DNA from: Diadema setosum
Taxonomy: Eukaryota; Echinodermata; Echinoidea; Diadematoida; Diadematidae
Assembly (NCBI GenBank): GCA_033980235.1
Contig: CM067077.1
Coordinates: 11,632,102 to 11,696,101 of the forward strand
Direction: 5' to 3'
DNA length: 64,000 bases
Part shown: positions 344 through 22,298 of the stretch, piece after piece
How positions within the stretch are numbered: the stretch's first letter is position 1
Layout: the number at the start of each line of letters is the position of its first letter
Notes under the pieces: model-generated
Told to the model about the DNA's origin: nothing
Database searches by the model: none
What the model saw: only the letters and a program-made list of their open reading frames with translations
Translations under genes and position numbers: made by a program

Positions 344-504
344 GAGAAGGTGGATTCACCGAAGAAGGAAACAAAGGATCGAAACGAGCATCCAATTTGA
401 AGGGAACGAAATTCGTTCCCGGAGATCGGGTTGCCATGACGGCCTCGCCGGACACACTGTCGAACATGGGTTTGTCCAAAGAAAGCCAAAAGCACGTCAA
501 AGAG
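344..504 (+). CDS. Kinase-gene exon 1 of window: start of first mind bomb repeat
   Basis: The acceptor ends ctatcag at 343 and the donor gtgaga starts at 505. The exon begins with two bases of a split codon and reads [11 protein letters not shown], then [21 protein letters not shown] is typical of the start of an SH3-like mind bomb repeat. The incoming phase proves that at least one further exon lies upstream, outside the window. Confidence 0.75.
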
Positions 505-2946
505 GTGAGAACATGAATTTCTGAAAAATCGAAGTCTTTGAAGCAATTTCCTTTCTGCCATTGTTGTTTAATTATTGTTCATTGGTATCGTTATCATTTG
601 TTTAACAACACTGAACAAGATGATGATTCTTTAGCAATGTCCCTCTCCACAGCTCACATAGACGCAGACACATACAAATACATACGAAGAGTTTGTTCGC
701 AAAAACCGATAAGTCCATATTTGCCGAATAGAGATAATAGAGATATTTGCGATTAAAGGTCAAGAAAAATAAAGAGAATAATAGAAAGTTTTTGCTTCTT
801 TCGACCATAACTTCAAAAATATACCTTTATATGTAGTGACCTATACCATTTAAAAGGTATTATTTTGTACTTTATGACAGAGACCGTACTTCAAAATCTT
901 CAAATATGGACTTATCAGTTTTTGCAAACAAACTCTTCATACATACATACATACATACATCCCGACCGCTAAGACTGTCTTTATTTGTATATTCTGAGGA
1001 CCTAGACGTGTCTGCATTGACTTCAATGCGATAACTTTCTACACGATCACGAACAAGTACAAAATATGGTAATTAAATGTTTGTATATTTCAGCCAATGT
1101 TTTCTAGAAGTACTTTCATTAAGTATACTCGGAAGGTTATCTTCTGTTTCATTCATTATTTTAATAGTATATAATGCACACTGTAAACACTTTGTACGTA
1201 AACCTGTACTTTGTAACATTAACATGACTTATTGTATATCCAAAGCACAGTTTATTGTGCCCTTGTAAATAATATATAATCAAATATGGTGTTTTCGTTA
1301 TTCCACGTCACCTGATCTTTGATATTATTTTGTCTGTAATCTGTAGGGGAACTACATTTAACAAGCAGTGCTCCTAAGTAGTCCCCTGCACATTTGTACA
1401 TGTTGTAATTTTATCTAAAAATATCACGATATTTTGTATTATACTCTGATAGTTATGATATAATGACCACTATGTGTTCTACCCTGTATATTATGAGATA
1501 ATGTCCACTATGTGGAATATGAATGAATACACTTCATTTCATTTCATTTCATTTCATTTCATTTCAATATTCACAATTAAAGATTCGTATGAATACATAA
1601 TATGGACCTATACAAAACTCAAACGAGTCATAAAAACCATAAGCAGTATAAAGCGGAATGCCAAATCATGTTGGCTGCAATAAATTTGTCGACAATAAAA
1701 AAAAAAAAATAAATAAATAAAAAAAAAAGAGTAGGCAATTAATCCAAATTTAACGTAGAAGAAAAAAAAACATTGAAAGTTGGACAGTAGTGATATATTT
1801 CCTTATGATTAAGGCTTTATTGCGAAATGTTTACATGGTAGGATGTTTTGTGATTATACAACTGACCTATATGCATCAAGTGTAATATCTCGAACATTTT
1901 TATATCACTGCTGCCAATGGTAAAGAGTAACTTCACCATTTGACAAAATTTTGAAAGAAAAATGTATATCCTTATCGACAATTACTTTAGTATGCACTGA
2001 GCCTTCAATGAAAACTTTCAGGAGAACAGGGGCCTTGCTACAGACCCCAACAGTGACTTGCTCATCTATCTGTGAAGAATATGTGATGACATCATTATTT
2101 CGGCAAATTTGCAAAAGTTTTTACAAGTGTTCACAATCCCTGTTATCATTTGGTTAAAATATGGACAACTTTTAGAACTCTTTGAACTTTTTTTTAACTT
2201 CATTTCAGCTGTTTATAAATCGTTAATCCCTTCTTTGCCTGACTTCATTGTATGTTAGGGTCACCTTGATAAGGTAATGCACTTAAAGTTTGCATAATGA
2301 GGCAGGGGAGTAAAATGATCACACATGTTATCAAGTATGACACAAGCACTCAGTCTCTAGATTTAACGGGACGTATAGTGCAAAATACACGACACTATAC
2401 ACTTTGACTATTGTACACAGTGTATAGGCCATGAAAAAAAAAAAAAAAGGCGGGTATCATCCGACTTTGTAATGATTGCATGGATATGATTCCTTTCCGG
2501 ATATCCGTGATGTAGGTCACTGGAAAAATTGGCTTCGTGCAAAGAACAACCCAAACCGATGCTCACGTGGCGTACCAAGACGGACAGGTGGAGATTCTTC
2601 CGGCAGCCATCTTGGAAAAGGTAGGTCAAAGCTCCAAGACCCCCTCCCCCTCTTTATATTAGTTTTCCTGCGTAACCACTCAGTCCATCCCACCCGCCAG
2701 CCTCCTTTCCGTTTCCGATCGGCGCTAGACTGTTCTGATATACAAACCGTGGATATCATGATAGGCCTAAAGAACTATGGATTAATTTTTTATCAATAAC
2801 AGCCTCAGTTATAGCGGGGCCATGTTTGGAATGAGATGGTCAAATAGTGCTTATATAGGACATGTATCTTCTCGCTTATTTCCCAATGAATAGTACCTTC
2901 CAAATATTAAAGAAGGCTATTACACAGACACACACACACAATCATT

Positions 2947-2995
<49 letters not shown>

Positions 2996-5900
2996 GAATA
3001 CACAGCAAAAAAAGTAAGTTCCCCCTTAACATTTTTTGATATATCTCAAAAAGTATTTTACGGATTGTCATAATTAAAACAGGAGTGGATAGGGAATGTC
3101 ATTACTCATAACATGAATGGCATATCATTGCCACCAGATATCAATATTGGTGTAAACAAACGCATTTTATGTCAAAATGCATGAGAAAAAAGTTGCGCTT
3201 AAGGCTATATGAAGCATATTGTGTAAATTTCCTATGTAAAATAGCAAATGACCTTTTTAAACTGTGTAATTCTCAGGAATTTCTTCAGGTACAATTTGCT
3301 TCCCTATTAAACAGGTGTTATGCATACTTTTTAAACAATAGCCTTTTCAATATGAAAATGTTGGTAGAAACAATGTGATTTGTAATTGTCCCCGCCGAAC
3401 GAGTTCGAGCAGGGGACTATGAAACGGGCTCCGTACGTGTGTGTGTCTGTGCGTCCGTCCGTGCGTCCATCCGTGTGTGCGTTCGTGTGTGATCAAAATG
3501 TTCAATTTGCTACTTCTCTGTCATTTATGAACCAATTTTGATTCTGTTTGCTTTATGATAGCACTACATGGGAGCTTTAAAACTTCTACACAGAATTTCA
3601 GTTGTGACCTTTCACCTTGACCTTTGACCTATATTGTACATTTTGCTAAAAAATGCTACTCCTTCGCCATTTCTAACCCAATTTCGATTCCGTTTGCTTT
3701 ATGTGATGGCACTAGATAGGTGAGGGCTTCAAAACTTCTACACAGAATTTTGACCTTTGACTTCTTTGACCTTTGACCTTGATTTTTAACCTATATTGTA
3801 CATTTTGCTACAAAATGCTACTCCTTCGCCATTTCTAACCCGATTTCGATTCCGTTTGCTTTATATGATGGCACTAGTTGAGGGCTTCAAAACTTCTACA
3901 CAGAATTTTGACCTTTGACTTCTTTGACCTTTGACCTTGATTTTTGACCTATATTGTGCATTTTGCTACAAACTGCTACTCCTTCGCCATTTCTAACCCG
4001 ATTTCGATTCCGTTTGCTTTATGTGATAGCACTAGGTGAGGGCTTCAAAAGTTCTACACAGAATTTTGACCTTTGTCTTCTTTGACCTTTGACCTTGATT
4101 TTTTACCTACATGTATATTGTACATTGGCTACAAAATGCTACTCCTTCGCCATTTCTAACCCAATTTCGGTTCCATTTGCTTTATGTGATGGCACTAGGT
4201 GAGGGCTTCAAAACTTCTACACAGAATTTTGACCTTTGTCTTCTTTGACCTTTGACCGTGATTTTTTACCTATATTGCACATTTTGTTACAAAATGCTAC
4301 TTCCGGCGGGGACATATATTACGCACCGCGTAATTTCTACTTTTCCTTGTTCCAATTAGGGTTGATCAAATTAATGTGCCTATGGCCATTTTGCATCATG
4401 CGCTCAAGCTGTAGATCAGTTTGTTGAGAGAAATGGCATCGAACGTATGGAGTGGCTTGCAAGATCCCCTGACTGTAATCCAGTAGAGTATCTTTGGGAG
4501 ATCATTAAGCGGAAAGCGAGCAAGAAGGTGAAAGATGACACTTCACTGCAAGAATTTCAGCGCATCTTGCCGAGAGCATGGGCCAACATTGAGCAGCGCC
4601 AAGTACAAACCTTAAACTGCCTTTATAGTTAACAGTACGAGGAAGAGATGCCGGCTGGTCATTGAAGCTGAAGGTGGACATATCAATTATCAAATACTTC
4701 ACTGTATACTCATGAAAAGAAAGATAGAGAAATATGCAATAAACCATGCTTAAATGTTCAGAATCATTAGTGATTGTTTGATTATTTGTGTAAAAGTCAT
4801 TGAAAATCACTAAAGTGCAACTTTTGTTTCCATGCATTTTGACATAAAATGCCCCTTTTCACACCAATAATGATATCTGGTGGCAATGATTTGCCACTCA
4901 TTGTTATGAGTAATAAAATTCCTTATCCATTTCCATTTGAAATATGAAAATCGGTTAATCTTTTTTTTTTTAGTTATATCCAAAAATGCTAGGGGGGGGG
5001 GAGCTCACTTTTTTTTGCTGAGTGTATATTAAACACATACATACATATACGTGTATACTACTTTACTTGTTTCGGTGAAACCAATCATTTAAAAAAAAAA
5101 AAGTCAGTAAAGACGTAACGATATTGATAACATATTATTGATAACCAAGGTTCTTTGAGTGCATACTTCACACTACAGTATGTCCAAAAAAAAAAAAAAA
5201 CACAACGGGGCATTCCGCAATGATATCTTTAAAAATAGTGAATCAATCTAAATACAAATTCAGGGTATGAAACTATAACTCATTGCCCACAACTTACAGA
5301 AAACCCCATTCGATTTGCTTCAGTGGTCAAAGAGAAATGAGGAATTTTGTAGAGGATGTCGAGAATCTCTTCTGTCCAAGTTCTGTCTATTATTCACACA
5401 CAAGATCATCGAAATGCTAAACTCCGATTCATGATATGCCTTACAACAATCCACATTTCTCTGTGACCGCTTAACCAATTCGAATGGGGATTTCTGCAAA
5501 ATAGAGCTAAAATGTTATATTTGAAGACCCTGAAGTAGCATTAAAAAAAAAAATCATATTGGGCGTTATCAGTGCGAAAATCTGATTGTAATTTTTGAGG
5601 GGACATCTGCAGTAAGTCGCCCCAAAAATTACAATCAGATTTTCGAATTGATAACACCAAATATGATCAACCTGTGTAAGTGCTACTTCAGGGTCTTAAA
5701 ATATAACATCTTAGCTCTATTTTGCAGAAAACCCCATTCAATTTGGTTAAGCGGTCACAGAGAAATGTGGATTGTTGTAAAGCATGTCATGAGTCTGATT
5801 AATCAAATTTTAGCAATTCAACGCTCTTGTGTGTGAATAATAGACAGAATTTGGACAAAAGAGATTCCCGACATCCTCTACAAAATTCCTCATTTCTCTT

Positions 5901-8900
5901 TGACCACTGAAGCAAATCGAATGGAGTTAGGATGTGGGCAATGATTTATAGTTTCATACCCTGAATTTGTATTTAGATTGATTTACTATTTTTAAAGATC
6001 TATCATTGCGGAGGGCCCCGTTGTAATTTTTTTGGGGACATACTGTATAGGTACACTGGAAACTCTATAGGGTCATATAGAATACATGATTACACAATTT
6101 GGTATATATATGGATCCATCGACAGCAATGTCCGCCTCAAGTCTAATTTCTTTCACTATATGCTACCCACAGTGAGGCACCGCGTACGTTTGGGAAGGGA
6201 ACTATCTCTTGCACTGTATATGTATGTAAACGCTATTTCCAGCCATAAGGGGAAATGCGGAATTAATGATACTCTGGGGAAATATTTAGAAAATAGCAAC
6301 TATTGCCCTTTTTGAAAAATTATGCATAAATACTGGCTCAATGCAGAATTGAATTGACAAGAGCGCAAAATGCAAGTTATACCACTAAATTTTGTTTCAA
6401 ATGAGAAAATACACCTCAGTCTTCTTTTAGAAAAAAAAAAACAGATATCGTACAACCATTTCTTGCATCCCTGCCAATCTCCCATAAATTGTATTGATGG
6501 TATAGTCCGCTATCTGTACACACTATAACATCTCTGCCCTATTGTGGAGTGAAACGTTTATGTTCTTTTCGAAAAATGAAATAAAGTTTGAATTGAATTG
6601 AATTGAATTGAATTGAATTGAGTAGTCCTGAGGCCATAGATATTCTTTTTTTTATTTTAAATGATGAAAAAAAAAAACGTTGTAAAACCTTGAAGGGAAT
6701 CAAAATTGTCCCCTTTGGAACGAATTACCCTTAAGATATATCTATAATTATATATATGTTTGTGTGTGTGAGTGTGCGATCGTGTGTGCGTATGTAAATG
6801 TGCCTATCTTTGTTTGTGTCTGCACATCAAACGTGACTTAGTTATAACCATGATTAATGCTTTGTACTGTGCAGGTGCCAGATATAAAAAAAGGAGACAA
6901 AGTTCGCGTCAAGTCAGACAAGGCATTACTCAAGAGATTGCTTCCGGGTCACGGCGGCTGGAATGACGACATGAAAAAGGTATTCTAATGTGCTTGCACG
7001 TTTGCCTCTTTGCTTTGTTTCGGTATTTTTTTTTATTTTATTATTTTTTTTTAGCAAGCTTGTTGGTTTTTTTTTTTTTAAGAAGACGAAATAAGACGAA
7101 ATATCGGTACACTTTTCCTTTTTGATACTATAAGATATTGATCACAATTTTGCATAATGATACTACGCAAAACGAGCAGATTTTCATGATGCAAATTGAC
7201 TCTCTGCTGATAAATCGGTACGATCATGAAAGATCTTGCCTTACGAAGTCTAGACGTTGGTGACCCTGAGATTTTCATCACATAAAATGTGTTTGTTATG
7301 CTCTATCTTTTTGTAGCAATTAAATTCGGTGTGTGCTTATATCATGTATTTTCAGACTAAGTGTTTACGTGTTGCATCTTTGACAATATCTTAACATGCA
7401 CATTTTGCGGTCTTTTCATTTTAATCATTGAAAAAAAAATCTTTCACGTGTTTATGTATAATGCGAAACACGATGACACACCATTTAAATCAATATTGCA
7501 AGCTCCCCCCCCCCCACACACACACAAGCACAAACACAAACGTACTTTCTCTATTCTCTCTCTTCCATCTCTAACTTTATATATTCCTGTATCTCTCTAC
7601 CGATCTCTCTATCCATCTGTCTATCCATCTAACTATTAACTCCTTCAAACCCCGATACCCCAAGGATCTTGGCAAATCTGCCAAAGTGATGAAGGTCGAT
7701 ACAGACGGGGATATAATTGTGAGGACGAAGCAGCGACGATGGAATTTCCATCCATGTTGTCTCGAAGTCGTCCAGAAGAGCGCCTACACCAAGGGTGACA
7801 GCGATGACGATGATGATACTTCGACTCTCAAAGGTATAATACACTGGATTCCCATAATAATGTAGTCCTCATTTACGGACCGGCAGTTTTCTTTCGTTAT
7901 AACCGAACAACAAATAATCAATTAAAATGCATAAAGCCGATAATGTTGCGGCCTGAATTGGTCGTTTACTTCGTTGTAACCAGAATCTCATTTAACCGTG
8001 TTCGTTATAACGGGAGTGCACTGTACTAACCTTGCTGCTGCTACAGTGCACTCCCGTTATAACGAACACGGTAATAGTGAAATTCAAGTTTCGAACTAAG
8101 TGAAAATGATGGCCCCAACATTACCCGCACTATATTTTTATTTATTGTTGTTCGGTTATAGCAAAATTTCGATCTAACGAAAGAAAACTGTCGGCCGAGT
8201 CCCGAGGACTTCGTTATGACGGAAGTCCACTGCACTACATAATTATGATACTTCAATGTCAATATTCTGTTCTTTACCTTAAACACTAGGTACACCAACA
8301 TTTACGGGAATATTACTGAGAAGCGTGGAAACCCCCTATATTATTTCCTTTTTCTAAGACAATAAATCATAAACCAATACAACAGCCAGTTATTTTGTGT
8401 GTGCGTTTTAACGCGTTCTTGCAATACGTATCGTACGCTATACCTTTTGTTTTTGTGGTGCTGATGTGTGTGTTGGGGGGGGGGGGATGAGGCTAATCCT
8501 CATATTTCCTTCCTATTATCATCATTTACTGCAACCCACAAAGTTGCAGTACGCATACTTTCTAATAAGCTGTACCAAAGACTCATTTTGTACGTCCCAT
8601 CTCAAACACATCATTATGCTCCTGTCCACTCGAAACATAATGATAGATATCCTCCCACTTCTTCCCCTTAGGCCTGGGTGGGGACACTCTTCTGAAACTA
8701 CTGGCGGCCGCAGGTGGAGGCGAGAGTGTCGGTGGAAGCGATCTCCATAAGCTACTGGAGAAGTTAGTGGCCTCTGACAGTGATAAGGGCGACTCCAGCG
8801 ACTCGGACGGAGAGTTAGGCCCGGGCGTCAAACGGTTCCACTTAGCAGCAGCAATTGGAAATGTGTCAAAGGTCACCCAAATGCTTAGCCAAGACCCTCA

Positions 8901-11900
8901 TTTAGTAAGTGCCCCTAGACTTTGACATTGGGAACTATTGTTACATCTCATTCATGCTAGAGAAATAAGATGCTACGACTGTATGATAGGCCGACTAAGT
9001 TTTTAAGTCGAACATATGAGAGATGTATAATAATCGTAAGAAAAACGAATTGTCACCGTAACCGAGTCCCCCATTTTAGTCCTGTTGTCATGATTGTTCG
9101 TTCATGTTTTTACTGCTTGCTCCAGCTCTCATCCAAATATAAGAACCAGACAGCGCTCTTCGCAGCTATTGGCCACAACGAGCCAGAAGTTGTAAAGGCG
9201 CTAGTGGAGGCAGGAGCTGACGTCACACAACGGAGCGGCAAGATGAAGGGCACAGTTTTACATCATGCCACCGAAGGGTAATTACTTTTTATGTCGTAAG
9301 TTTACCTGGGACCATGTTCCTGGTCAGGATCCGCTTTTGAAGATGGTCCCCTGGATTTCAAATTTCATACATATCATAAATCATATACCTCATAGATTCC
9401 TCTCATCTGATTGGTTAAAAGTGGAGTCATGAAAATAGCTGTGCCTCATATTGTATCAAAATGACGTCATGATTTACTGTGCCCGGGGCATAGAATCAAC
9501 TGTGCCCTGTAAATAGGTTTGGAGACAGTCGCAACCCCGTACACATATAGATCACTCATATGTACGCACCAATGATACGACCACCGCGCTGTCGATCAGC
9601 GTTGATTACGATTGCTGTAAAAGAGACTAGAATCTATATTTTCAGTGTCTAATATTTCGGAATCTGTATTTTCGGTATGTAAAACAAATAATGACAGCTT
9701 GATATTCGGGGCACAGTTAAAATTATGTAGGCCCTCGGTGATGTGAAAACCATAACTATGCCCTGGTTTTCACATCACCCTGGGCCCATTATTTTAACGG
9801 TGCCCCTCATAGCAGTCATTATTTGTATATTATTAGAAGTGTTCCTAGCTCTGTTATACCTTCAATTTGACAGTGCGTTGTACTTTTTCTCTCTATTCAT
9901 TTTCCTGTAAATGATTGCACTCCATAATGTACATTGACGCGGACGAACAATTCGTACAGTCTATATGACATTTTTTTTTTTGGTCATATGTATATACATG
10001 TATTTTGTTGAAAACGGATTGCAGATATAACTTGGATTAAACTGAACTGACCTAACGAATCAAATAGAATTCAGAAGGAGTGGCAGATCTGATACCCTTT
10101 CATACGCTCAACGGATTACATCTGCATTATTTGAACATAAATCGGAGAGGGCCAAGAGCAATGTGCATATTTCTTTTAATATCTGCCTCGCGACCAGACA
10201 GTAAGTTTGTGAACGCAATATAATATTACGATAACACCGACTATTTCCAAGGTCATCCTTTTTCCGTTGTAGCAGTGGATAGTGCCCCCCCCCCCCCTCC
10301 CGAGCTGACAGTCCGCGCACCTGTCCGTGCTGGACGCCCCCTCACGGAGCAAACTGCCTGCCTTGTGAAAACTCTTTGAAAGTTTAAAAAAAAATAATAA
10401 TAATAAACGAAGAAATAAATATACATAAAATTAACATAAAATTATGATGTATACAAAAGGCATATTCAAAGTTGTATAGAGATCAGCAGATTTTACATGG
10501 AGAGAAGAGAAACTGGTAATTATAGATTTAAAGCAGATTGAGAACGAGGATGGTAATGACCAGACTACAGTACACTAAGATGTGGCGATCATCGTTGTTT
10601 GCTAAGCGATGAATTGGCTACACCCTGAGAGGAAACGGAAAGAGGCCAAAAAACAACAAAAGGGGTATAGGAAGTGACTGGCACCGTTCCTGATCGCCCA
10701 CAACCCTCCCCCTCTCCCTTCCCCAATCCCCCCCCCCCCCCCCCCCTCCTGACCTGTATACCGAGATCGCGCCTACGATGATTTAGTAAACATAACCATC
10801 CTCTGTGTCATGGATTTTGGACAATGTGTTATACAACACTATGGGGTTTTCTGTGCCAATCGGCACCCAAGAGCACACAAAGGGTTGAGGGAATAATTTA
10901 CCATTTGCAGATGAAACAAAAACCCAGCACTTCAAATAGTTCTGAAATGTGAGTTAGGGATAGAAACAACCAAGATAAAAGTTTGAACCAGTATAATCGA
11001 TCTTAAGTATTGTTGAATATACAAATGTGAACAATAATTGCAATAAAAAAAATCCAGACTAAACCGTCTACAGTTATGGATTAATGAGAAACATAGTGAT
11101 ATCTCCATATATTTTAGGCTTTATTGCAAACATTTTATCTGGTATCACAGGATGTTCTGTGATACAACTGACCTACACATAATTATGCATCAAAAGTGAT
11201 ATCTTTCGGTGACAAATATTTTTAAATCACTGCTCCCAAAGGTAAACAGCAGCTGAAAATATGACAACGGAAAGTAAATAAACACAGATAACAACAAAGC
11301 AAAACAGTTTCTTGTTCAATCATACTGATGTATTAAGAATTATGCAGCTCGTATATCATACAAACATTATGACTATCATTATTACGTAAGCGCTCATTTA
11401 TAAGCGCTTTGCCACTTTATAACCACTATGTTATCATTATATCGTTTTGTTGTTAATAGGGGATACGTGGATATCCTATCTTATTTACTGCCGCTGTGTG
11501 GTCCCATACTGAACGCAAAAGCAAACGAAGGGCTGACCCCACTGCACGTGGCAACCTTGAGACATCAAAACGAGTGCGGACAAGTTCTCCTCCTTTACGG
11601 CTGTAGTCCAAATGAGAAGGTTAGTTATTGAAGTTTGTTTCATTTCACTTCACTTTATCTTCATCATGTATTCCAGAAGACGGTGACCTCATGTACATGC
11701 ATAAAAAACGGATGTTATCCTGTAGACATACAAGATAACATTTGACGAATCATGGTTAATATAGATTGTAGAAACAAAGAAAGCAACATTATCCACTTTA
11801 AGTAATATGCCTACACTGCTTGAATTAATTACGAAAAGTTCAGACAACACAAAACAAAACTCATGCATCTTGCAATACACTTGAAGGCAAAATTAAGTGT

Positions 11901-14900
11901 AGAGTATACTACGTATATTATGGTTAAGTCCCCACCCCCCCCCCCCCTCTCTCTCTCTCTCTCTGTATATTAATCAAAACTCTAAATATCCTCCGGCGAC
12001 GAACTGACTTCCATCCGAATACATACAGATTAATCGATAATCGAAAGATAAATGGACTGTTAAAATCAATGGCCTTGTAGTTCAATGATACTATGAAAAA
12101 AAACAAGAAAAAGAAAGCACGCAAAGGCGATTATATGTGATATGAAAAGCTCTATCAGTGTAAATATACATTTGCTAGAGTCAAATGTACTCACATGTCA
12201 ATGTAACAAAGGACTGTAAGAAACATAGTTGCCTACCTTTACAAAGAAATAGTAATTATGTGGTACATTGTGTGGTATGGTATCAAGGATACTGCTCAAT
12301 ATAGGTCGACATCCCCCCCCCCCTCCACTTCTTCATAAGCTCACAACATTGCTAACGTATACTTTAATCATACGGCTAGTTGCAATACAGAATCGAATGT
12401 CAGATGGAGTAAAATATGCTTTGATCATGACATTATCATTAACATTATTGGTATACCTAATGAACATTATAGTGAATGAGTGTGATCTCACCGTAAAATC
12501 TCTTCCTGTTAGAAGCCATCTTTTGCTGATGTTATTTATTTATTTTCTTGTTTTAGTTTGGTAAAAATCAATTGATTGTCAAATTGATGCCATTCTCCAA
12601 CACACATTTTGTCGGTTGGTTGGTCTGAATCGCATTAGCTCGCAGTGTCGATGAAACTGACTTTTATGACTAAGGAAGAAAAACCACGTTTCTGATGTTA
12701 TTCTTCAATTTCTCCGACACATTTAAAACTTTACTTGGTCTTAAAATCACTGCTATATAGGCCTGGATTTTCCACTTTGTGATTTCCGCAAAGTATTCAT
12801 TCCAGACTTGGTAAGCTCTTTCAATACAACGTCCTATCTTGTCGATTTCAAGAACAGGCCATAGTAGTATTGTTGCTTGTCTATTATACGCGAGCGGAAG
12901 TAACTGTTGCGACCGGGGTAGTACATTTCCTGTGTCAAAACACAAGGAAAGGCAATAGCATATGTGAAATTAAAAGGAAATAGTCGTAACCTTCAGCTAT
13001 GCAAGTTCATGGCTTTCAATTTCGGTACAGTACACCCCGCACAACCAGGTTTGATCTACACACAGCGTTTTGTACTAATTGTACCGGATAGTTATGTATA
13101 CCTACATGTTAACGTGTCTTGAAATTTTGATAATGGTATTTCGACATTCCCATTTTGTTAATCGTATCGTTTCACACACAAAAAAAAATCTCATTATCGT
13201 GGTGGATTTTTCGTAAAGCAACATTCTAGAGGAAAAAACCACACAAAAAACAAGTATTCATATAGTAGATATAATAAGCACACAAAATTGATAAGATTTA
13301 AAAAAAATGTAGCTGGTATAATCAATTATAATTCCCACAGATACCAGGTGTTACAACCACTACGTCACAAGTTCACAGAATGCTCAAACATGTATTTTGA
13401 AGATGTTTTTTTTTTTCTTTTTTTGGAACATTTTTATGATTCAGCAATCTTATGTTTGTCCGTTTATGAAGGAAGCTGAATCATCACTGTCATGAAAATG
13501 TTTGCAATTATGATGTAAAAAAAAAAAAAAAAAACCGCTTCACCAAACCACATACGATGATATAAAGGCCGTGTCACACCGTTCCGGGCAAGCTATGCGG
13601 GCTTGTGGCGAGGAGGTCACAGTTTCCAGCACGTAGAAGATTTTCAGCGGGCGAACAAGAATGTTTGCAATTTTTATTCATGCCTTGTCATACCGTACGG
13701 GGGAAGTTTTGCGGCTTGACTTGCGGGAAAACAAATTTACTCCCCGGAGCTCTCCTCAGTTGGTCCGCACCTGACAGTATCTAGCGCGTATCTATAGTTG
13801 CCCGGAGGTGCTCACGCAAGTCCGATTTAACCGCAGCCAAGTTTTGAGCATGACCAAAACTTTTTTTCCGAGTGAGTCGCGGGAATGCCCGCAGAGGTCC
13901 ACGCAGAACGCCAGTAGGAGGCCCTTAGCGGCAGCACTTCCCAGGCAACTCCCACGCAGGTACTTCGCAGTCCCGTATGCAGCCAACATAATGAAATTCT
14001 ATGGGATTTCAGCCATTCCATTAGAGAAATTCCTTCACCGAGTTGTCAGCCCCCACGCGACTGGCACAAAGGTCACACAGTATACTCCAGCAAGTAAGAC
14101 ACATGCGCTGACTCGCTCAAATCCAGTATCCGTCCTAAGGAATGTCCGGTATGCTAGAAAATCCCTACACGTAACAAGCCCGGGTAGCTTGCCCGGAAAG
14201 GTGTGACAGGGCCTAAACACGGTTGCGGGTAAAAAAAAAAATAAAAAATATGCGTGCGCACATCCGGGCGACTGCGGTTGAGATACATGCTAGGTACTGT
14301 CATGTGCGGATCATCTACGGGGACCTCCGGGTAGTCAAAATTGTTCTTTGTAAGTCGCACGCAAGGCTTGCCCGGAAAGGTGTGACACGGCCTTTAGGAC
14401 TTGCTTTTAATAAAGACTCGTACCTAATCAACATTCTAATCTTCTTATCATCAAAGCCAATGTGTTTTTATAATACAAGAGTATAGTAAATATACGTTGT
14501 ACTTAGTTTTCAAAAGTTAATACATGGACTGCGAACATAACGATTTCATCGTTTGTTTATATTTCAACAAAATTTGCGATGTGCTTTTTGCTATATAACT
14601 TTATTTTACCAATTTTTAGGACAAGAAGGGAAACACTCCTCTGCTTGCTGGGATGGAAAGACCACATGACGACCTTGAGTTCATGTTTGATGCCCCCGAC
14701 CTTGATGTCACCTCCACAAATAAGAAGGGATTTAACGCACTTCACCAAGCCGTTTTCCACAACCGTCGCAAGTAAACTTCCATAATCCATGTTTCACACA
14801 TCCTGAGAACGTTGTTATCCATTTTTTTTAACTGATTTACTCTAAATATTATTGCTAAGGTCATTATTTTGTTGTCATAATTATTCATAGATCATGGTCT

Positions 14901-17900
14901 TATTTGCCAACATGACGTTAGAATATTTTGTATTGCGTCCGTACGTCTGTAGGAGAGTTTGGCTTTTCTGAATCAAAGTGATGATAAATTCCAAATAAGC
15001 TGTCATCCGAGAAATACCAGGACATTCTTATTTCCTTGGCAAATTTGATTAAACTGAAATTACTGCAGTGATATGTTTACATGGAACGTTGAATGCACGC
15101 ACCAATCTGAGTTTCACGTTCATATTTTCTGCCCGTTTCTGTTGATATTTCTCGCATACCTTTGGGAATGACTTTATTTTTTTATTTGTTTGCTTGTCCA
15201 TGAATCCGAAGTATCCCCAAATAAAATAAACAAATAAAGCAACAAAACATATATTATTTTGTTGTTGTTGTTGTTACCGCGGTATGAATCCACCCGGAAT
15301 TGTTGACGTTTTGAAAAAAATGGAAATAAGGAAAATCAAGATCAACCGAGTTTCAACGAATAGCTTCATTTTTATCATCATTGTCATTTTTGATCATCTA
15401 CTGCAGAACGGCTCAACTGCTGCTGGACCGTTTTCCTACCCTGGGGCCTACCCTCGCAAGTTCTCAGTCTACCCTGCATATCGCAGCCATCAACAACTAC
15501 GCTGAAATGCTGGAAATACTCTTGAAAGCTGTACGTAGGCAAAACGAGACGTTATCATTTCAACATCCTTGACACAAATATTAGTCTGTTGTCCTCTTTT
15601 ATTCTTGCAACTTCCATACCATCTTCTGCTACATAATTATTGTTTTTTTATGTTTTATAACAACGTTAAAGTCAAAAAAAAAAAGAATTGCCTTAAATGG
15701 TCACGACTTATTCGTTCATTTTCTATCGTGTTTTGAGTAATTTAGTTGCTTTATTTGTCATCTCTGTCAAAAAACATTATTCCATTTTATATTTCAGGTA
15801 TTTGCTGTCGGTGAAGTTGGTAGTTTTTCATTTCCTTTTTTTTTCTTTTTTTTTTTACAGTTTCTCTTACTCTTGTATATCAATTGCTGCATACTGCTCC
15901 TAACAAGAAACGTTTATACTTCAGATGTACAGTCTGTATTTGTATAGAAACAGACAGACAGATCGGTAGACAAGATGGTAACAGTAAGTAAAGACAGATA
16001 TGAAGAGCTTGCTTCCAAAAGACGCTTAAATTCATTGAAAAATGATGGATTTAGCGCCTTTTGGAAGCAAGTTCTTCATACATAAACATAATACACATAT
16101 AGGCCTACAAATGTTCATAGAAACAGGTCTGATTGAATTGCAGGGATCTGTAAACATAGATGCCCTAAATGGAAACAAAGAGACTCCCCTGCATCTGGCC
16201 GTCCAGGAAGGCGGAAGTGAGTGTGTCGAGCTCCTGCTCGCTCATGGAGCCAACATCAACGCGAAGAGCAGGAAGGGAGAAACGCCGCTACACATGGCAG
16301 CGCGGCTCGGCGACAACGACAAGACGCCTAAGGATACCCCGACGTTGTCCGAAGTAAGTCGGTCTCCAAAGTGTCAAGTCCATTGTGTGTATTGGCAGGG
16401 GTTGACATTACCCGTGGTCCGGTGGCATGTGTCACTATCGAAATTGATATCGGGTCAAAAATATCCAAAAAAGATTATCTTTAGATGGTGCCATTGGGCA
16501 GCAAAGATTCATAATAAAGTTTAATAATGTCCCTTTTTAAAAACGGGCCAATATATATATTTTTTTTTCGAGCCCCTAACATTTTAAATCCTAAGATTTA
16601 ATGGCCCAATCGGACCTCTAGAGAAAAATGTCAGTGTCCAGCCATGGTATATGCAACTGTAAAAAAGCTTAGTAAGTTTGCTATTTTTGCGCAAGATCCT
16701 ACCCTCCCCAGTGATTGCGACTATATAGTAACGGTCGTCTATCGTATGTGTCGACATAACTCTTAATACTCTCAACAATGCTCCTCATTTCACTAAAAAT
16801 ATATGTTTGTGTGTGTGTTTTCTTTTCAAATCACATCAGTATTAACCTCTCATACGAGATTTGTTTCCGGTAGAGCGGTGAGGCAAGTCGTGCAACTCAA
16901 AGCAAGACGTCCTTCTGTGTGACGTGATGCACGGTGTGAGCAGAGTTCGAAGGTTGTGCTAATCTTTCATAAGTAACGTTGACCTTTCCAAGTCATTCCA
17001 TGACACTAGCTAAACCCATCTTCGAATAAGCATTTTGACAGCACAGTTACAGTTCGCAAATTTCTTGCTTGAAAACTAAACAAATCACGGTATCTTCTTT
17101 TCTTTTCTTTTTTTTTTTTGCGAAATGTAGTTTCATTCTTTTTCTTTTTATTTCATTCTTGTGTCGTCTTTCTTGTATGCAGTTGAAGGAGAAATTCAGC
17201 CAACACGGAGTTTCGTCCACAGCAGACGCCTTGCTCGTCCTTCTTGTCAATAATGGGGCCAAGGCGGATGAAAAAGATCGACGCAGCAAAACTCCGCTAG
17301 ACTTCATCAAAAACGAGACCCTTAAGGACCTGATAGAGCGACTATACCTTGGAAAAAGGTGAGAATAGCACCCGGCATGAAACGTCACAAATAAAGTCGA
17401 AGTGAGCTGCAAGTACAGTTCGACCTCGATTATCCGGCCATGTCGGGACCGGCGCACATCCAGATAAGCGAATTGGCCGGATATGGGAGACACACTGTTA
17501 ATGTATTTAGCTGCCGTCAGAGCTGCCGTCCCAGTGCACTGGCAACTAGGCAGGTGGTGTAATATATGCTAGCCTGCGCAAAATTGTAGTCCCTTCTTCA
17601 CAAAAATAAAGTATTTCATCTTTATGTGAAAGTCATACATGTTTTACCTCATTAGATTCTGAGAAACCTATCATGTACATCTTATGAATTTCGTGAAATA
17701 GATCCATGAAAAGACGTTAAAATCACTGTTTTTTTTTTCTCAATTTTTGGATGAAAAAAAGTCCTTCACTGCGTGAACGCGTCCGGATAATAGAGATTTC
17801 CGGATAAAAGGAGGCGGGATAAACCGAGGTCAAACTGAGGAAGAGTTCTGTCTATCACACGAGGTAGTAAAATCCTCGCTTAGAATTTCGGATCATTACA

Positions 17901-20900
17901 AGAATTCTGTAGCATTTCAACATTAAAACTGATGTTCTCGGCTCGGTCAGTTGTGGCGAATTCTAGCTCCGTGGTACCTTTTGAAGGAGTATTGCTAGTC
18001 TTGCTCCTATATACAGTGTATAAATCCGATGTTGGACAGTAGTGCTTTACTGCTTATAAAAGATTTGATTATTGAAGGGGTTTCTCTGCTAAACTGTTGT
18101 TGTCATTTGTGTTTCGCCGGTGAAACAAGTGGTAGTATATCTAAAAACAGAGCCTAATTCAAACCTATCAGCAGTAGCGCATGCTCTTTCCACTCATTTT
18201 GGGTAGAAAGTGCTTGTTGAGTGTGCTGTAGTTGGGAATAGTCTTCTCTTTTTGAGGGAATGAAAGTATATTCATTTCAAGCTCATGACATGTTCATGTA
18301 TTATCTGCGCTCAAAAAGAAGTGAGCTAGAGCAGTGCAGCAAATCGGTAATTCAGAGGCCTCATATTTTTTTGGAGAAAGAGATATCGCTGCGGAATACA
18401 TTGTGCTGCTATTTCCTACTTTGATGAGATTATGAACATTCACATTACCGGTAGCTTACAGAAGATTTCAAAGCTGCAGTTATTTTTTTTTCTTCAATCC
18501 GACCTCACCGTAGACATCACAAGAATATACCTGGTAATTGGGAGATCCGCAGAAGAAGCAGGCTACTGTCAACTGGCAGTCGGCTACACCTTACAAGCAC
18601 TTTGAAATTATTTCTTTTTTTGGATGAGCGTACACTGAAACGTGAAAAGATGAAACTGTCTATATATGGGGAGAGTAGGCATAGAGATAGAGAGATGTTA
18701 CTGGTTTGATGTTCGTTTTGTTATGGTTCTCATTAAAGTCTGGTCCTGGAATCCACAAACGTAGAGAGAGTCATGCACAAGAGCGGAAAAGGCTTTGTCA
18801 CGCATATTGCCGACATTGTCAATGGCGATGCACCTCAAGGCTTGCAAGGTATGTATGGGTATTATAGCCCTGCTCTACATTGGATAAGACATCAGATTCT
18901 GACAGATTTACGGTTCAAATATCGATTCACCTCAGACATTCCTACAGGACATGCTCCACCCACTTTTGCAACTTGAGAAATGAGCAAAGGAGCAAAAATT
19001 ACCATGGCGATTCCGATATGAGCGCTCGGAAGAATACAGTTAGTAGATAATCCAATCCACTGTCATGTTATGTGAGAAATTATGTCGCAGGAAAGAAACG
19101 GGCAACTGAAATAGCTGTACACAATTGCGTGTGCAGATTAATGACGGTCAGAATATGTCTTGGATTAGCAACGCCGGGAAGAAAGAGAGGCTTCCGAATA
19201 TTTGCAACAAAAATAAAAAATATTAGTACAAATGCAGTCATTTTATTTTTTTTTTTCTGGACCTGCAATTTGTAAATGCCAGTATGAGGACAAACCAACA
19301 TCCTATTCAGAATGTATATTAATTGCAGTTGTAAATAACCTAAAGTTGCTACACTACAACAGAACCCCGCAGTGTATTTGGATTGATATTCAATTGCCAC
19401 ATCATGCATAGCTTTTGTTAATTGGACAATTTAATGGATTGAGTGCGATTTTTTAGAAATGCCGTATATTGAGAGCGGTTCAACCCAATCCAGTAAACAG
19501 ATTTCATGGTGGAAATTACCTTGGAACAGCCATAGCTAACTCTAGAATTTTGGTTTAACACTTTAATGACAGCGATGACTCTTCATGTTATATTATGCAG
19601 ACTTTGAGGGCGTGCATCGCGTTGAACCGGGAGAGATCCGACTGGAAGAGTTCATCGGAGAAGGAGCCTTCGGAAAGGTTCACCGCGCTGTGTGGAGGGG
19701 GACTCCGGTGGCAGTAAAAGTCTTGTCCACCAAGAAGAACCAGAAACATGATGTCGAAAGGGAGGTTTCGGTGCACAAGTGAGAGACGTATTCGAAATTT
19801 GTTTTGGGTTTATGTGGTCGTTTTTGTTGTTTCTTTTTGAGAAGTAAAATTCCATACATGGGAAGTTGATATAAATAAGCAGAGTACTGGTTTCGGGAAT
19901 GGGGGAGGGGCAGTGTTGGGGAATTTCCGCAGCTTGGGGGTTTCTAGAACATTACTTAATTCTATCATGTCAATAGAAGGAGTCCAGTCTACCGGGTAAC
20001 TTCGAGTTATGTGGGTACTCTACCGTTATAACCACTTGCTCTTAAAGCTTAGGCCAATCTTCGGGGCAAATAACAACAACAATCTTCTACGGGTATTAAT
20101 TGCAAACGTCCCACTAAGAGATGATAACAGATGAAGGGTTGACCCTATAAAGCATACACTAACAAAATGAGTATTAATGGAATACAAACAGCAAAAGACT
20201 GAAGTGCCAATCTTCGACATGCAAATTGATACAGTATGCAAAGAGGACAAAAATATTTGTGTTGCACCGCCCGTACTGAAATGGATCAAGAATGACTTAC
20301 CATAGCCATGATAAAGCCAAGTCACTATGTGAGTGTGTGAACATATTTCAGTACGATGTATTGTGATTGTGCCCTTTTTATTGCCCTTTTAAAGCCGCCA
20401 TCACTAACCAATTACTGTCTCAACAATTGACAGGCGAACTCGACATCCTAACATCGTCCGCATGATGGCGCTCTCATACAAAGACAAAGAGACACTCTTA
20501 GTGATGCAGCTCGTTGAGGGCAGCAACTTGCAGGACTTGCTTTTCAGTGACAGCCACCAGCACAAGGTCTGCAATAACATTTATTCGCCTGTTTATTCAC
20601 ATGGCCGGCAGAACGGGGGAGGGGGCTCACCCCCCCCCCCCCCAAAAAAAAAAAAAAAAAAAAATATTATTCGCTCCCCCCCCCCCCCCTCCTACTTTTG
20701 AAAACGTTCCGCCGGCCCTGACTCGATTGTTTGGGTGTATTCTTGCAGGATTGACTAATAGTGTACACCATAGCCGTCTAATGGTATAACCACTGTGTAA
20801 TTTGTTTCATCATCAATATTACACTGTAGGAGACAGCAAATGGAGCACACCAATTGATACAGTTTTGCAACAATCTGCCGTGAAGATGTCAGTGTCACAT

Positions 20901-22298
20901 AGATATGATTATGCAGTCAGACAGGTAGTAGGGCCTTCATAAAGCATTTTAAACCCAAAAGGTCAAGTCAACAAAGCACAATGACATGTTTCATTAAAAC
21001 TACATAGTCTGGTTTCCAGACCCTTACTTGAGTTTTTGACGTCAAGGGCGTCAATATCCTGCATATAGCAAAACAGTACGAGAAGAGGGTCTGGAAGACA
21101 CACTACATTAAAACAAAATACATGTACTCTTTAAGTTAAGTGTTTGAAGTTTTGACAGAATGTAGTTGATAATGACGTTGACACACACCTGCTGTTCCTA
21201 TTTGTATTTTGTGATCCTCTCTCGTTCATAAAGTCTCCCAAATATGTCTTCTTTGCTCCTTCCTTTCAGATGTCACTCACCAAAGCTGAAAAGGTCCAGA
21301 TAAGTCTTGAAATTCTTCAGGCGATTCGGTTCCTTCACGAATCCAAGATACTCCACCTCGATATCAAGCCATCTAATATCATTGTAAGCAGCACTATTAT
21401 TTCCCTTTTCTTCTTATTTTGTTTGTTTCAATCTGCTATTAAACGAATCATACACATTGCAGTGATCTCTTGCAAAGTTCCCGTACATACACAACTTGTT
21501 CCAGAGCATACACGATAAAACAAACAAATGTGAATATGTGGATTGTGAATAAACACACATCGATATTATACAAAATTTAGCAGTCTCACTTTTTCCATAT
21601 ACGTGTATATCATAATGAAAACATGTTCCAATATTTCGTTCTCGATACCAACCAAAGACCTCCCAACCTTTCTGACTGAAAAACGGGAATGATTTGGCTC
21701 AAAAGTGGGAAAGAAAGAACTGTGTCCAGAGCAGTGGTAAAATCACCAGGAGAAATAGGAAACTTCTATTGACAGAAGATGAGAATGATCAAAATTCAGA
21801 TTCTCTCCTCTAAATTCAGAAGGGCTGGGAGTTCGATCTGCAACCACATTATTCTTTTGGTTTTCTCTCACGCCTTCACAGGTGGAGAAATCAAGTAAGA
21901 AAGCATACCTCTGCGATCTCGGGCTTGCACACATGAAGTCCCGCGACTCCCCCGAGGATTCCAAACCGGGCGTGCGCGGCACGATCTACTACATGCCGCC
22001 AGAGTGTCTCAAAGGCCGACGGGGACGGGACAAGGGGGAAAGCAAGATGACCTCGGCATGTGATATTTGGTCTCTAGGGTGCACCCTCCTCGAACTGTTC
22101 ACGGAAAAGCCGCTGTGGGGCGACGGGGATAACCTCCTCCTACTGGGCCGGCTCGTGGGCACCCATTCCCTGCCTCCACATCTGAGAAAAGCCGATTCCG
22201 ACATCAAACGCATCCTGGCGCCGTGCTTCGATGAGGACCCGAACGAGAGACCGTCAGCCGCTCAACTGATGAGCCGATTCCAGGAGCTTGGCTATTGA
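344..22298 (+). CDS. MIB2-like protein with C-terminal kinase domain (16 exons, 5' end missing)
   Basis: Sixteen exons joined by GT-AG introns give 898 continuous residues with no phase conflict. Residues about 22-88 and 89-180 resemble the two SH3-like mind bomb repeats (second one with GHGGWNDDM and [11 protein letters not shown]). Residues about 230-560 are eight or nine ankyrin repeats ([26 protein letters not shown]) in the order and spacing of MIB2, including its DVT-TN motif. After a linker of some 50 residues comes a protein kinase domain (about 631-898): glycine loop GEGAFGKV 638-645, Lys658, Glu673, HLDIKPSN 751-758, DLG 772-774, PPE 799-801, DIWSLG. All catalytic residues are present, so activity is predicted. 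MIB2 proteins end in RING fingers; no cysteine-rich ring is seen here. The N-terminal MIB-HERC2/ZZ part, if any, lies outside the window. Cytosolic signalling is inferred. The alternative, two adjacent genes, is opposed by phase-matched exons bridging ankyrin and kinase parts. Confidence 0.85.
686..938. mobile_element. MITE, GAAGAGTTTG family, copy 1 (253 bp)
   Basis: Imperfect terminal inverted repeats of about 35 bases start gaagagtttgttcg and end caaacaaactcttc. A 4-bp duplication atac flanks it at 682-685 and 939-942. Short ORFs here are by-products of the repeat. It sits in the first visible intron of the kinase gene. Confidence 0.75.
1393..1566 (+). mobile_element. Retroposon 3' tail with (ATTTC)n end
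   Basis: The stretch from ttgtacatgttg to actatgtgtt recurs at 36714-36805. It ends in seven or so copies of a 5-bp ttcat repeat, as expected for the 3' end of a non-LTR retroposon. No coding part is left. Confidence 0.5.
1786..1945 (+). repeat. Dispersed repeat family R1, partial copy
   Basis: Similar to 11100-11250 and 28480-28710: shared words include ggctttattgc, caactgacct, atgcatcaa and tcactgctgcc. Family type unknown; termini not defined. Confidence 0.55.
2516..2620 (+). CDS. Kinase-gene exon 2: end of first mind bomb repeat
   Basis: A phase 0 to phase 0 exon of 35 codons ([15 protein letters not shown]...[11 protein letters not shown]) with acceptor tgtag and donor gtaggt. The VxGKIGxV core followed by a short basic/acidic strand pattern is that of an SH3-like mind bomb repeat. 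Confidence 0.75.
2948..2992. repeat. (TA)n microsatellite
   Basis: About 22 TA units following a short CA run. It abuts the 5' end of the Tc1-like element at 3001. Confidence 0.95.
3388..4336 (+). mobile_element. Helentron-like non-autonomous element nested in the Tc1 relic
   Basis: Left end gtccccgccg and subterminal complement cggcggggac at 4304-4313 form a short inverted pair. A small hairpin, attacgc-acc-gcgtaat, ends the element at 4318-4334. The middle (about 3490-4300) is a tandem array of a 158-162-bp unit, marked by ccttcgccatttctaaccc at 3661, 3823, 3981 and 4143. Subterminal repeats, internal minisatellite and terminal hairpin are the layout of Helentron-associated elements (HINEs). 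The exact class is inference. Confidence 0.6.
4350..4632 (+). pseudogene. Tc1-like transposase C-terminal fragment
   Basis: In-frame residues from about [16 protein letters not shown] through [18 protein letters not shown] to the stop after LNCLYS. SPD-NP-E-LWE is the conserved end of the Tc1 DDE catalytic domain. The N-terminal DNA-binding part and first catalytic residues are lost, so it cannot be active. Confidence 0.85.
5174..6047. mobile_element. Fold-back element with ~430-bp arms
   Basis: The left half (5174-5603) is matched in reverse by the right half (5617-6047). Outer ends read tacagtatgtcc and ggacatactgta; near the centre gaggggac faces gtcgcccc. Between the arms are only about 13 bases. 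Divergence between arms is visible but modest. It lies in the intron between kinase-gene exons 2 and 3. ORFs here are not coding. Confidence 0.85.
6560..6620 (+). repeat. Retroposon-like tail with (GAATT)n
   Basis: A polyadenylation-like aaataaag is followed by six or more gaatt units. This looks like the 3' tail of an inserted retroposon; its body (about 6480-6560) is short and unrecognised. Confidence 0.5.
6875..6979 (+). CDS. Kinase-gene exon 3: second mind bomb repeat, first half
   Basis: Phase 0 to phase 0, 35 codons. It reads [12 protein letters not shown] and ends with [14 protein letters not shown]. The GHGGW-DDM motif is a hallmark of mind bomb repeats in MIB1 and MIB2 and is the strongest single link to that family. 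Confidence 0.88.
7665..7833 (+). CDS. Kinase-gene exon 4: second mind bomb repeat, second half, and acidic linker
   Basis: The exon reads [16 protein letters not shown] then [13 protein letters not shown], which corresponds to the LGK-G-V-KV--DGD and W-F-P parts of a mind bomb repeat. It ends in an Asp-rich stretch (DSDDDDDTS). It ends in phase 1 before gtataa; the acceptor is cccaag at 7664. A MITE starts only nine bases past the donor. Confidence 0.85.
7842..8023 (+). mobile_element. TA-flanked MITE, GTTATAACG family, copy 1
   Basis: Right terminus cgttataacgggagtgcactg is followed by TA; left terminus cactggattcccataata is preceded by TA and is diverged. About 182 bp. Related copies at 8044-8232 (inverted) and 59360-59533. 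CAGT-type ends with TA targets suggest pogo/Tigger-like mobilisation. Confidence 0.75.
8044..8232 (-). mobile_element. TA-flanked MITE, GTTATAACG family, copy 2 (inverted)
   Basis: Starts cagtgcactcccgttataac after TA and ends cgttatgacggaagtccactg. It lies head to head with the copy at 7842-8023, only 20 bases apart, so the pair can fold into a long hairpin. Confidence 0.8.
8672..8904 (+). CDS. Kinase-gene exon 5: low-complexity linker and first ankyrin repeat
   Basis: The exon takes phase 1 from exon 4 and ends in phase 0 before gtaagt. It encodes a Gly/Ser/Asp-rich linker ([23 protein letters not shown]) followed by the first ankyrin helix pair, [19 protein letters not shown]. Confidence 0.85.
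9126..9277 (+). CDS. Kinase-gene exon 6: ankyrin repeats
   Basis: Ankyrin repeat sequence [20 protein letters not shown] and VEAGADVTQ, then [10 protein letters not shown]. It begins in phase 0 after tccag and leaves two bases of a Gly codon before gtaatt. Confidence 0.87.
9278..11459 (+). other. Intron 6 of the kinase gene, no gene found
   Basis: AT-rich sequence with C-tracts at about 10285 and 10729-10747. A repeat copy occupies 10893-11262. Around 9430-9830 several ggtgatgtgaaaacc/ggttttcacatcacc inverted words suggest an undefined old element. No exon-like stretch with consistent frame was seen. Confidence 0.6.
10893..11262 (+). repeat. Dispersed repeat family R1, copy with empty site
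   Basis: Near-collinear with 28262-28714: both begin taatttaccatttgcagatg and end atcactgctcccaaaggtaaa. The present copy lacks the 85-bp insertion found in the other one, which makes it the empty-site reference. Confidence 0.8.
11460..11619 (+). CDS. Kinase-gene exon 7: ankyrin repeat
   Basis: Completes the split Gly codon of exon 6 and reads [14 protein letters not shown], then [19 protein letters not shown] and [11 protein letters not shown]. This is a canonical ankyrin repeat (G-TPLH-A). Ends in phase 0 before gttagt. Confidence 0.88.
11620..14619 (+). other. Intron 7 of the kinase gene
   Basis: Holds a C-run plus CT repeat at 11935-11966, AT-rich filler, and the MITE at 13566-14395. 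ORFs at 12268-12564 and 12670-12945 show no family signal and no exon-like context. Confidence 0.6.
13566..14395. mobile_element. GGCCGTGTCACACC DNA transposon, non-autonomous, with internal end copy
   Basis: Left end aaaggccgtgtcacacc and right end ggtgtgacacggccttt are inverted repeats that continue with ccgggcaagc. A third, same-orientation copy of the right end lies inside at 14178-14214 (gcttgcccggaaaggtgtga). The GC content is well above the intron. The 132-codon ORF at 13808-14206 lies within it and has no recognisable domain. Confidence 0.75.
14620..14771 (+). CDS. Kinase-gene exon 8: ankyrin repeats
   Basis: Reads [18 protein letters not shown], then [19 protein letters not shown]. 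The DVT-TN-GF-LH order is the one seen in MIB2 ankyrin repeats. Ends in phase 2 before gtaaac. Confidence 0.87.
15407..15530 (+). CDS. Kinase-gene exon 9: ankyrin repeat
   Basis: Completes the Lys codon split at exon 8 and reads [13 protein letters not shown], then [20 protein letters not shown]. Acceptor ctgcag, donor gtacgt, leaves in phase 0. Confidence 0.87.
15999..16080. repeat. 82-bp hairpin just upstream of kinase-gene exon 10
   Basis: Arms 15999-16021 and 16058-16080 (tatgaagagcttgcttcc against its complement) pair with one mismatch; the middle also pairs (cgct-aaa with ttt-agcg). Ends 64 bases before exon 10. Either a tiny MITE or a structured intronic RNA. Confidence 0.6.
16144..16353 (+). 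CDS. Kinase-gene exon 10: two ankyrin repeats
   Basis: Seventy codons, phase 0 to phase 0. Reads [45 protein letters not shown], then a polar loop [11 protein letters not shown]. These are two near-consensus ankyrin repeats. The loop sits where MIB2 also has a long insertion. Confidence 0.9.
17183..17358 (+). CDS. Kinase-gene exon 11: last ankyrin repeat
   Basis: Reads [36 protein letters not shown] and [18 protein letters not shown]. The [18 protein letters not shown] block is a C-terminal ankyrin repeat, as at the end of the MIB2 ankyrin array. Ends in phase 2 before gtgaga. Confidence 0.87.
17416..17836. mobile_element. TA-flanked MITE, CAGTTCGACCTCG family
   Basis: Begins cagttcgacctcgattatcc after TA and ends ggataaaccgaggtcaaactg. 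Inner words ggccggata / tccggataa repeat the terminal motif. About 421 bp; the CAGT...ACTG ends place it with the pogo-like MITEs. Confidence 0.7.
18739..18848 (+). CDS. Kinase-gene exon 12: linker bridging ankyrin and kinase parts
   Basis: Not recognisable by family, but its phases (2 in, 1 out) match both neighbours exactly. It reads [19 protein letters not shown] and [18 protein letters not shown]. It lies where MIB2 would lead into its RING fingers and contains no cysteines. It is the physical evidence that ankyrin and kinase exons form one transcript. Confidence 0.72.
19601..19778 (+). CDS. Kinase-gene exon 13: kinase N-lobe, glycine loop and catalytic lysine
   Basis: Starts after tattatgcag and completes an Asp codon from exon 12. 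Reads [19 protein letters not shown], then [13 protein letters not shown]. It contains the GxGxxGxV loop (638-645), the VAVK lysine (658) and, near the end, the helix-C glutamate (EREV, 673). Donor gtgaga splits a Lys codon. Confidence 0.9.
20434..20566 (+). CDS. Kinase-gene exon 14: kinase N-lobe to hinge
   Basis: Completes the split Lys and reads [19 protein letters not shown], then [23 protein letters not shown] and the MQLVEGSNL hinge are typical of subdomains IV-V of protein kinases. Donor gtctgc is weaker than the others. Confidence 0.88.
20600..20720. mobile_element. Small GC-rich MITE with C and A runs
   Basis: ggccggcagaacg at the left and cgttccgccggcc at the right form inverted ends around long C and A homopolymers. 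Located in the intron after kinase-gene exon 14. The proline/lysine ORFs over it are artefacts of the homopolymers. Confidence 0.5.
20721..21269 (+). other. Rest of intron 14 of the kinase gene
   Basis: AT-rich intron sequence. No ORF, repeat end or RNA signal was recognised apart from the polypyrimidine tract before exon 15. Confidence 0.5.
21270..21383 (+). CDS. Kinase-gene exon 15: catalytic loop
   Basis: Phase 0 to phase 0, 38 codons. Reads [19 protein letters not shown], then IKPSNII. The catalytic loop is HLDIKPSN instead of the common HRD form; the proton acceptor Asp753 and Asn758 are kept. HLD/HMD variants are known in MOS, PKMYT1 and WEE1. Confidence 0.9.
21882..22298 (+). CDS. Kinase-gene exon 16: activation segment, C-lobe and stop
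   Basis: Terminal exon, 138 codons plus TGA. Reads [15 protein letters not shown] (DLG instead of DFG), [11 protein letters not shown] (PPE instead of APE), [35 protein letters not shown] and ends FQELGY. The CF-EDP-ERPSA block is subdomain XI. The exon is clearly more GC-rich than the flanking introns, as are the other coding exons. Confidence 0.92.
   Translation: MEKSSKKAYLCDLGLAHMKSRDSPEDSKPGVRGTIYYMPPECLKGRRGRDKGESKMTSACDIWSLGCTLLELFTEKPLWGDGDNLLLLGRLVGTHSLPPHLRKADSDIKRILAPCFDEDPNERPSAAQLMSRFQELGY

Follow-up and report, generated by a model that had tools for sequence, protein, structure and literature searches.

A Mind bomb-like gene with a protein kinase domain following the ankyrin repeats

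Mind bomb ligases, ankyrin kinases and the gene in the window

The activity of the Mind bomb ligases resides in their C-terminal RING fingers. The RING-bearing MIB2 proteins of Diadema setosum (P0255), Acanthaster planci (P0257) and Glandiceps (P0245) share with the gene product described here the SH3_15 domain, the ankyrin array and the cap that precedes the C-terminal module. They differ from it in that they end in RING fingers and have no kinase, and their recognition domains are better conserved among themselves. A kinase is also combined with ankyrin repeats in RIPK4 and ANKK1, which to our knowledge have no MIB parts. In these two proteins, the kinase is N-terminal and the ankyrins are C-terminal (PMC9573974), which bears out the sequence-only reading that their order is opposite to that in the window. 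Membership of the window protein in the RIPK4/ANKK1 type was rejected on account of this reversed order. The oyster protein P0265 (Crassostrea virginica LOC111128440) resembles the MIB-kinases in that Mib_herc2 and ZZ are joined to another catalytic output. In P0265, six Mib_herc2 and three ZZ stretches are followed by a PARP catalytic domain according to Pfam; unlike in the MIB-kinases, the output is a PARP and neither ankyrin nor SH3_15 matches are present. New outputs appear to have been attached to Mind bomb modules on more than one occasion.

The window is the whole stretch of 64,000 nucleotides that was analysed. Sixteen exons joined in silico (Table 1) encode 898 residues in a single frame throughout. 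All 15 introns are bounded by GT and AG, and exon 1 is preceded by AG. Pfam recognises in the product the Mind bomb SH3 repeat (SH3_15, residues 94-156, E 4.5e-16), ankyrin repeats (Ank_2, E 1.3e-50) and a protein kinase (Pkinase, residues 633-891, profile positions 3-259 of 263, E 4.7e-52). The earlier claim that MIB repeats, ankyrins and a complete kinase are encoded by 16 phase-consistent exons is upheld by these junctions, frame and matches. The window covers the gene from exon 1 rightward; the N-terminal MIB-ZZ-MIB region and the 5′ exons lie outside it, and the gene appears to extend to the left of exon 1.

Table 1. Exons of the MIB-kinase gene (344-22298) and other coding features of the window
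Feature	Position	Strand	Content and evidence
Exon 1	344..504	+	residues 1-53; linker, then beginning of SH3 repeat a; AG acceptor 342-343, donor gtgaga, in phase
Exon 2	2516..2620	+	residues 54-88; diverged MIB SH3 repeat a without HGGW; alignment
Exon 3	6875..6979	+	residues 89-123; MIB SH3 repeat b with GHGGWNDDM; SH3_15 and MIB1 4tse matches
Exon 4	7665..7833	+	residues 124-179; remainder of SH3 repeat b, acidic linker
Exon 5	8672..8904	+	residues 180-257; linker and beginning of ankyrin array
Exon 6	9126..9277	+	residues 258-307; ankyrin
Exon 7	11460..11619	+	residues 308-361; ankyrin
Exon 8	14620..14771	+	residues 362-411; ankyrin
Exon 9	15407..15530	+	residues 412-453; ankyrin
Exon 10	16144..16353	+	residues 454-523; ankyrin; best Ank_2 stretch 435-510
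Exon 11	17183..17358	+	residues 524-581; MIB2-type last ankyrin and cap; cap alignment
Exon 12	18739..18848	+	residues 582-618; linker without domain, weak acceptor; length preserves frame
Exon 13	19601..19778	+	residues 619-677; kinase N-lobe, GEGAFGKV loop, VAVK lysine; Pkinase match
Exon 14	20434..20566	+	residues 678-722; kinase; Pkinase match
Exon 15	21270..21383	+	residues 723-760; kinase catalytic loop HLDIKPSN
Exon 16	21882..22298	+	residues 761-898 and TGA; DLG and PPE motifs, C-lobe, stop
TGA stop codon	22296-22298	+	end of the MIB-kinase gene
ADP-ribosylglycohydrolase gene	about 29.6-33.6 kb	-	ADP_ribosyl_GH, E 6.9e-31, hand-joined translation
Open frame matching PPP1R35 C-terminus	52934-53965	-	E 4.7e-12

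Among solved structures, the SH3 part matches 4tse (E 6.2e-17) and 4xi6 (E 3.5e-16), both chains of MIB1. The mind bomb repeats had been described by the motif GHGGWNDDM. This holds for the second repeat only; the first lacks HGGW and is recognisable by alignment, a single SH3_15 stretch exceeding the Pfam cut-off. The ankyrin cap preceding the kinase aligns with the cap that precedes the RINGs in 12 RING MIB2 rows, and for this reason the array can be said to follow the MIB2 order, as had been proposed. A RING was sought in the window. The six-frame scan, which would miss a RING interrupted by introns, found no RING-like motif, and a tblastn comparison of three RING regions with the window revealed no RING homology (best E 0.95). 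At the level of sequence, the order MIB SH3, ankyrins, kinase in one gene, with no RING found, is thus confirmed. Since the RING was tested for and not found, we do not count the window protein among the Mind bomb ligases. What is new here is the pairing of MIB-type recognition with a predicted kinase output; the proteins themselves are public, most of them under a ligase name.

Several repeated sequences accompany the gene. Near its two ends, at 686-724, 900-938 and 22720-22758, lie three copies of a 39-base sequence (chance expectation 0): two perfect ones on the plus strand and an inverted one with 3 mismatches. This sequence is possibly a terminus of some small mobile element. Intron 2 contains, at 3048-4967, two inverted arms, 79 and 66 nt long and 86% and 76% complementary. 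Between them lie a 158-base tandem array at 3605-4301 and, at 4375-4632, an open frame that by eye resembles the end part of a Tc1-type transposase. A comparison of the window DNA with phage records gave no match.

Relatives and origin

The top match in the whole-protein search is P0001 from S. purpuratus, named 'E3 ubiquitin-protein ligase MIB2-like' (E 2.3e-119). In the search with the kinase region, at least 10 sea urchin proteins (E 1.4e-79 to 6.4e-63) stand ahead of the next match (4.2e-44) among the best 120 of 781, and a profile search added P0240 from Lytechinus pictus among the best 120 of 881. At least 11 kinase-sharing relatives from S. purpuratus, L. variegatus, L. pictus, D. antillarum and D. 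setosum are therefore found among the matches listed, all of them predicted gene models. Among these matches, Pfam finds Mib_herc2, SH3_15, ankyrins and the kinase together in nine (S. purpuratus P0127, P0128 and P0001; Lytechinus P0123 and P0240; Diadema P0122, P0125, P0126 and P0129), ZZ in all of the nine except P0126, and a RING in none of the 11. The remaining two, P0121 and P0124, have no MIB part and are perhaps incomplete models. The insert at residues about 710-935 of P0001 bears a weak resemblance to reverse transcriptase (RVT_1, 24.2 bits, below the cut-off of 29.6) and may represent a transposon that the gene model took in.

The window protein shows the family order, its kinase lying C-terminal to MIB SH3 and ankyrins and no RING being found; the relatives share with it the position of the kinase after the MIB2 cap and the HLD loop, and differ in that their N-terminus is complete within the models. 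The finding of nine database proteins alike, from five sea urchin species and without a RING, agrees with the earlier statement that the kinase sits where the RINGs would be. The window kinase is 45-48% identical to those of five relatives, from which it follows that the window protein would be a separate paralog or belong to a distant species. It had also been stated that no protein with this order was described. We found no paper on the architecture in the open-licence literature (titles and abstract openings), although the sea urchin kinome of Bradham 2006 may list such proteins; the proteins as such are in NCBI and UniRef, where among the matches listed 7 of the 11, all within the full-order nine, bear E3-ligase names and the others are called 'uncharacterized' (2), 'ankyrin-3' and 'CTR1'. 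The family is tentatively considered to be restricted to echinoids. The profile search scored 7994 candidates, and P0122, P0123 and P0126 were in its query yet absent from the matches listed. Since searches of this scope overlooked known members, the lack of matches in sea stars, crinoids and hemichordates is weak evidence that the family is absent there.

In the tree of the MIB/ankyrin part, a single branch separates 9 kinase bearers from 12 RING bearers. Its support of 93/94 falls just below the level that the tool marks with a star, and it recurs in 94% of 200 bootstrap trees. The smallest starred set with the window protein also includes one RING protein, P0115 from oyster, itself on a long branch, so that a more complicated history is possible. 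For the N-terminal part of the window protein, the highest identity (32%) is with the RING protein of Glandiceps. In the kinase tree, 12 MIB-kinase domains group together, apart from 16 other rows (99/95). This tree includes P0001, P0121 and P0124, which were omitted from the MIB/ankyrin tree because of the insert in the first and the missing MIB part in the other two. Two groups are present in both trees: K1 (Strongylocentrotus, Lytechinus pictus and two Diadema proteins) and K2 (L. variegatus and D. antillarum). The window protein and P0122 from D. antillarum fall outside both, and their arrangement differs by tree: in one they pair (82/81, with a long-branch warning), in the other they adjoin without being sisters. 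Their placement is unsure because the branches are long.

The sequence-only reading held that the RING of MIB2 had been swapped for a kinase. This did not hold up, since D. setosum retains a RING MIB2 (P0255, three RING stretches in Pfam), and the kinase form is hence an added paralog. Pfam also detects the RING MIB2 form in Acanthaster (P0257), and, by precomputed annotation among the matches listed, in P0247, P0253 and P0245. The first two of these are crinoid proteins and the third is a hemichordate one. The simplest reading of the trees is one fusion followed by duplications. Duplication of the gene, together with either a fusion or exon shuffling at an exon boundary, would have produced the kinase form alongside the RING MIB2.

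The kinase domain and its proposed role

The glycine loop, VAV/IK, HLDIKPxN, DLG/DIG and PPE/APE motifs are present in 12 of 12 MIB-kinase rows. HLD replaces HRD in every row, making the loop non-RD, and the catalytic Asp, Lys and Asn are likewise kept in all. The product is therefore likely to be an active kinase, as far as its residues can predict. The best solved relatives of the domain are B-Raf (E 2.8e-29) and, close behind, Nek7 (E 2.3e-27). B-Raf belongs to the TKL group and Nek7 stands outside it. Given the closeness of the Nek7 match, the window kinase is tentatively described as TKL-like. The next nearest kinase domains among the matches listed, P0130 and P0131 (ena source), are 35-38% identical and differ from the MIB-kinases in having no MIB or ankyrin match and in their HQD or HRD loops.

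The recognition part has diverged from RING MIB2. Relative to the hemichordate RING MIB2, a RING reference that favours the RING rows and leads one to expect lower values for the kinase paralogs, the first Mib_herc2 is 42-62% identical in 7 kinase proteins and 83-89% in 4 RING proteins, and the ankyrins 31-43% in 8 kinase rows and 58-66% in 4 RING rows; the comparison took in these 8 and 4 rows out of 12 and 12. The ZZ values are 41-64% for the kinase forms and 57-80% for the RING forms, some kinase forms exceeding the D. setosum RING protein (57%). The recognition part is also more variable within the family, the ankyrins of the window protein being 28-34% identical to those of the five relatives whose kinases are compared above. 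The proposal that the substrate-binding part of MIB2 had been kept is not supported by these values, within the limits of that reference. Recognition in the kinase forms has, we infer, changed or been relaxed; a new substrate is for this reason more likely than a plain copy of those of MIB2.

We propose, with good confidence, that the window gene belongs to a family, seen in sea urchins, of RING-less MIB2 paralogs in which a TKL-like kinase follows the ankyrin cap and a short linker and acts as a partner-recruiting kinase. The MIB, SH3 and ankyrin modules would bring in a partner, and this partner or a neighbour would then be phosphorylated by the kinase tethered to them; a ubiquitin output would in this way have been turned into a phosphate output. 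Activity of a kinase with a non-RD loop may not need classical activation-loop phosphorylation, and such loops are common among immune kinases. By this rule, the HLD loop suggests that the MIB-kinases are possibly independent of that phosphorylation.

A tentative alternative, which concerns the target only and leaves the architecture untouched, places the family in innate immune or stress signalling instead of on Notch ligands, as RIPK/IRAK-like kinases with a fast-changing MIB-ankyrin sensor or scaffold. The non-RD loop would suit it, as would the recognition part varying more than the kinase and the at least three diverged MIB-kinase types of D. antillarum among the matches listed (P0122, P0125 and P0126). 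The end branch of the window protein points the same way, with a length of 1.91 in the MIB/ankyrin tree against 0.5 in the kinase tree, the two trees differing in their rows. Against it, Pfam scans of the window protein and its relatives found no death, TIR or CARD domains, and the fast change may reflect relaxed constraint alone. It is unlikely, in our estimate, that the protein is instead a phosphorylating twin of Mind bomb that marks MIB-type targets, such as the tails of Notch ligands or further partners of MIB2, with phosphate and so opposes or tunes the coexisting RING enzyme. In MIB1, the MZM and REP modules are reported to bind two boxes in the Notch ligand tails (PMC11887331). Still less probable is a kinase-dead or mainly scaffolding protein whose kinase fold serves binding: the replacements of HRD by HLD and of DFG by DLG would fit it, but the catalytic residues and the glycine loop are retained in all 12 rows.

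Integrity of the fused gene and its meaning

The partner-recruiting kinase proposed above presupposes one gene across the ankyrin-kinase junction. Direct splicing of exon 11 to exon 13 breaks the frame, which requires an intervening exon of length 2 mod 3; exon 12 fits. Site and codon models trained without this exon gave scores of -1.2 for its acceptor, 9.9 for its donor and 13.8 for its codons. The in-frame codon score exceeds both other frames in all 16 exons, exon 12 being the sole independent case since the other 15 served for training. A first scan, in which positive site scores were required, returned 26 candidates (best 9.3) and missed exon 12 because its acceptor score lies below that cut-off. 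Without cut-offs, exon 12 ranked first of 113 with 22.5, the next non-overlapping candidate scoring 10.4. Fifteen control stretches, 8 of which had also trained the intron background, reached 3.9-20.4 in 14 cases and 36.4 in one (best of nine phase combinations). Exon 12 is accordingly likely to be real but not certain. The control that scored 36.4 lies at 36000-38240 of the window and contains an open frame (37222-37560) without a Pfam match.

Read-through of the exon 11 donor meets a stop at 17360 and AATAAA at 17390 (also at 17605 and 19212), and the frame of exon 13 has an ATG at 19585, 16 bases upstream of the exon. Short forms, either MIB-ankyrin or kinase-only, are therefore possible. 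The same signals, together with the weak acceptor of exon 12, could indicate two adjacent genes wrongly joined, a RING-less MIB2-like gene and a separate kinase. We consider this very improbable and rejected it, since the identical fused order occurs in the nine database proteins of five species and three genera, and the length of exon 12 meets the frame requirement. The fused homologs largely settle this doubt. At the 3′ end, AATAAA signals follow the stop codon at 22603 and 22797. A recently retrocopied kinase was rejected because the kinase is split over four exons. Least probable of all is a decaying copy or pseudogene, which the diverged SH3 repeat a and the long MIB/ankyrin branch might suggest but which was rejected given 2699 bases of joined exons with zero stops and zero frameshifts, GT-AG at every intron and every kinase motif intact.

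The family looks like a natural instance of an E3 ligase whose catalytic output has been replaced by a kinase with no change in the order of its recognition modules. The ligase name carried by most of the relatives would assign the wrong activity to genes of developmental models such as S. purpuratus and Lytechinus. Because the RING MIB2 and the kinase form share D. setosum, the exchangeability of ubiquitin and phosphate outputs on one recognition module would be testable.
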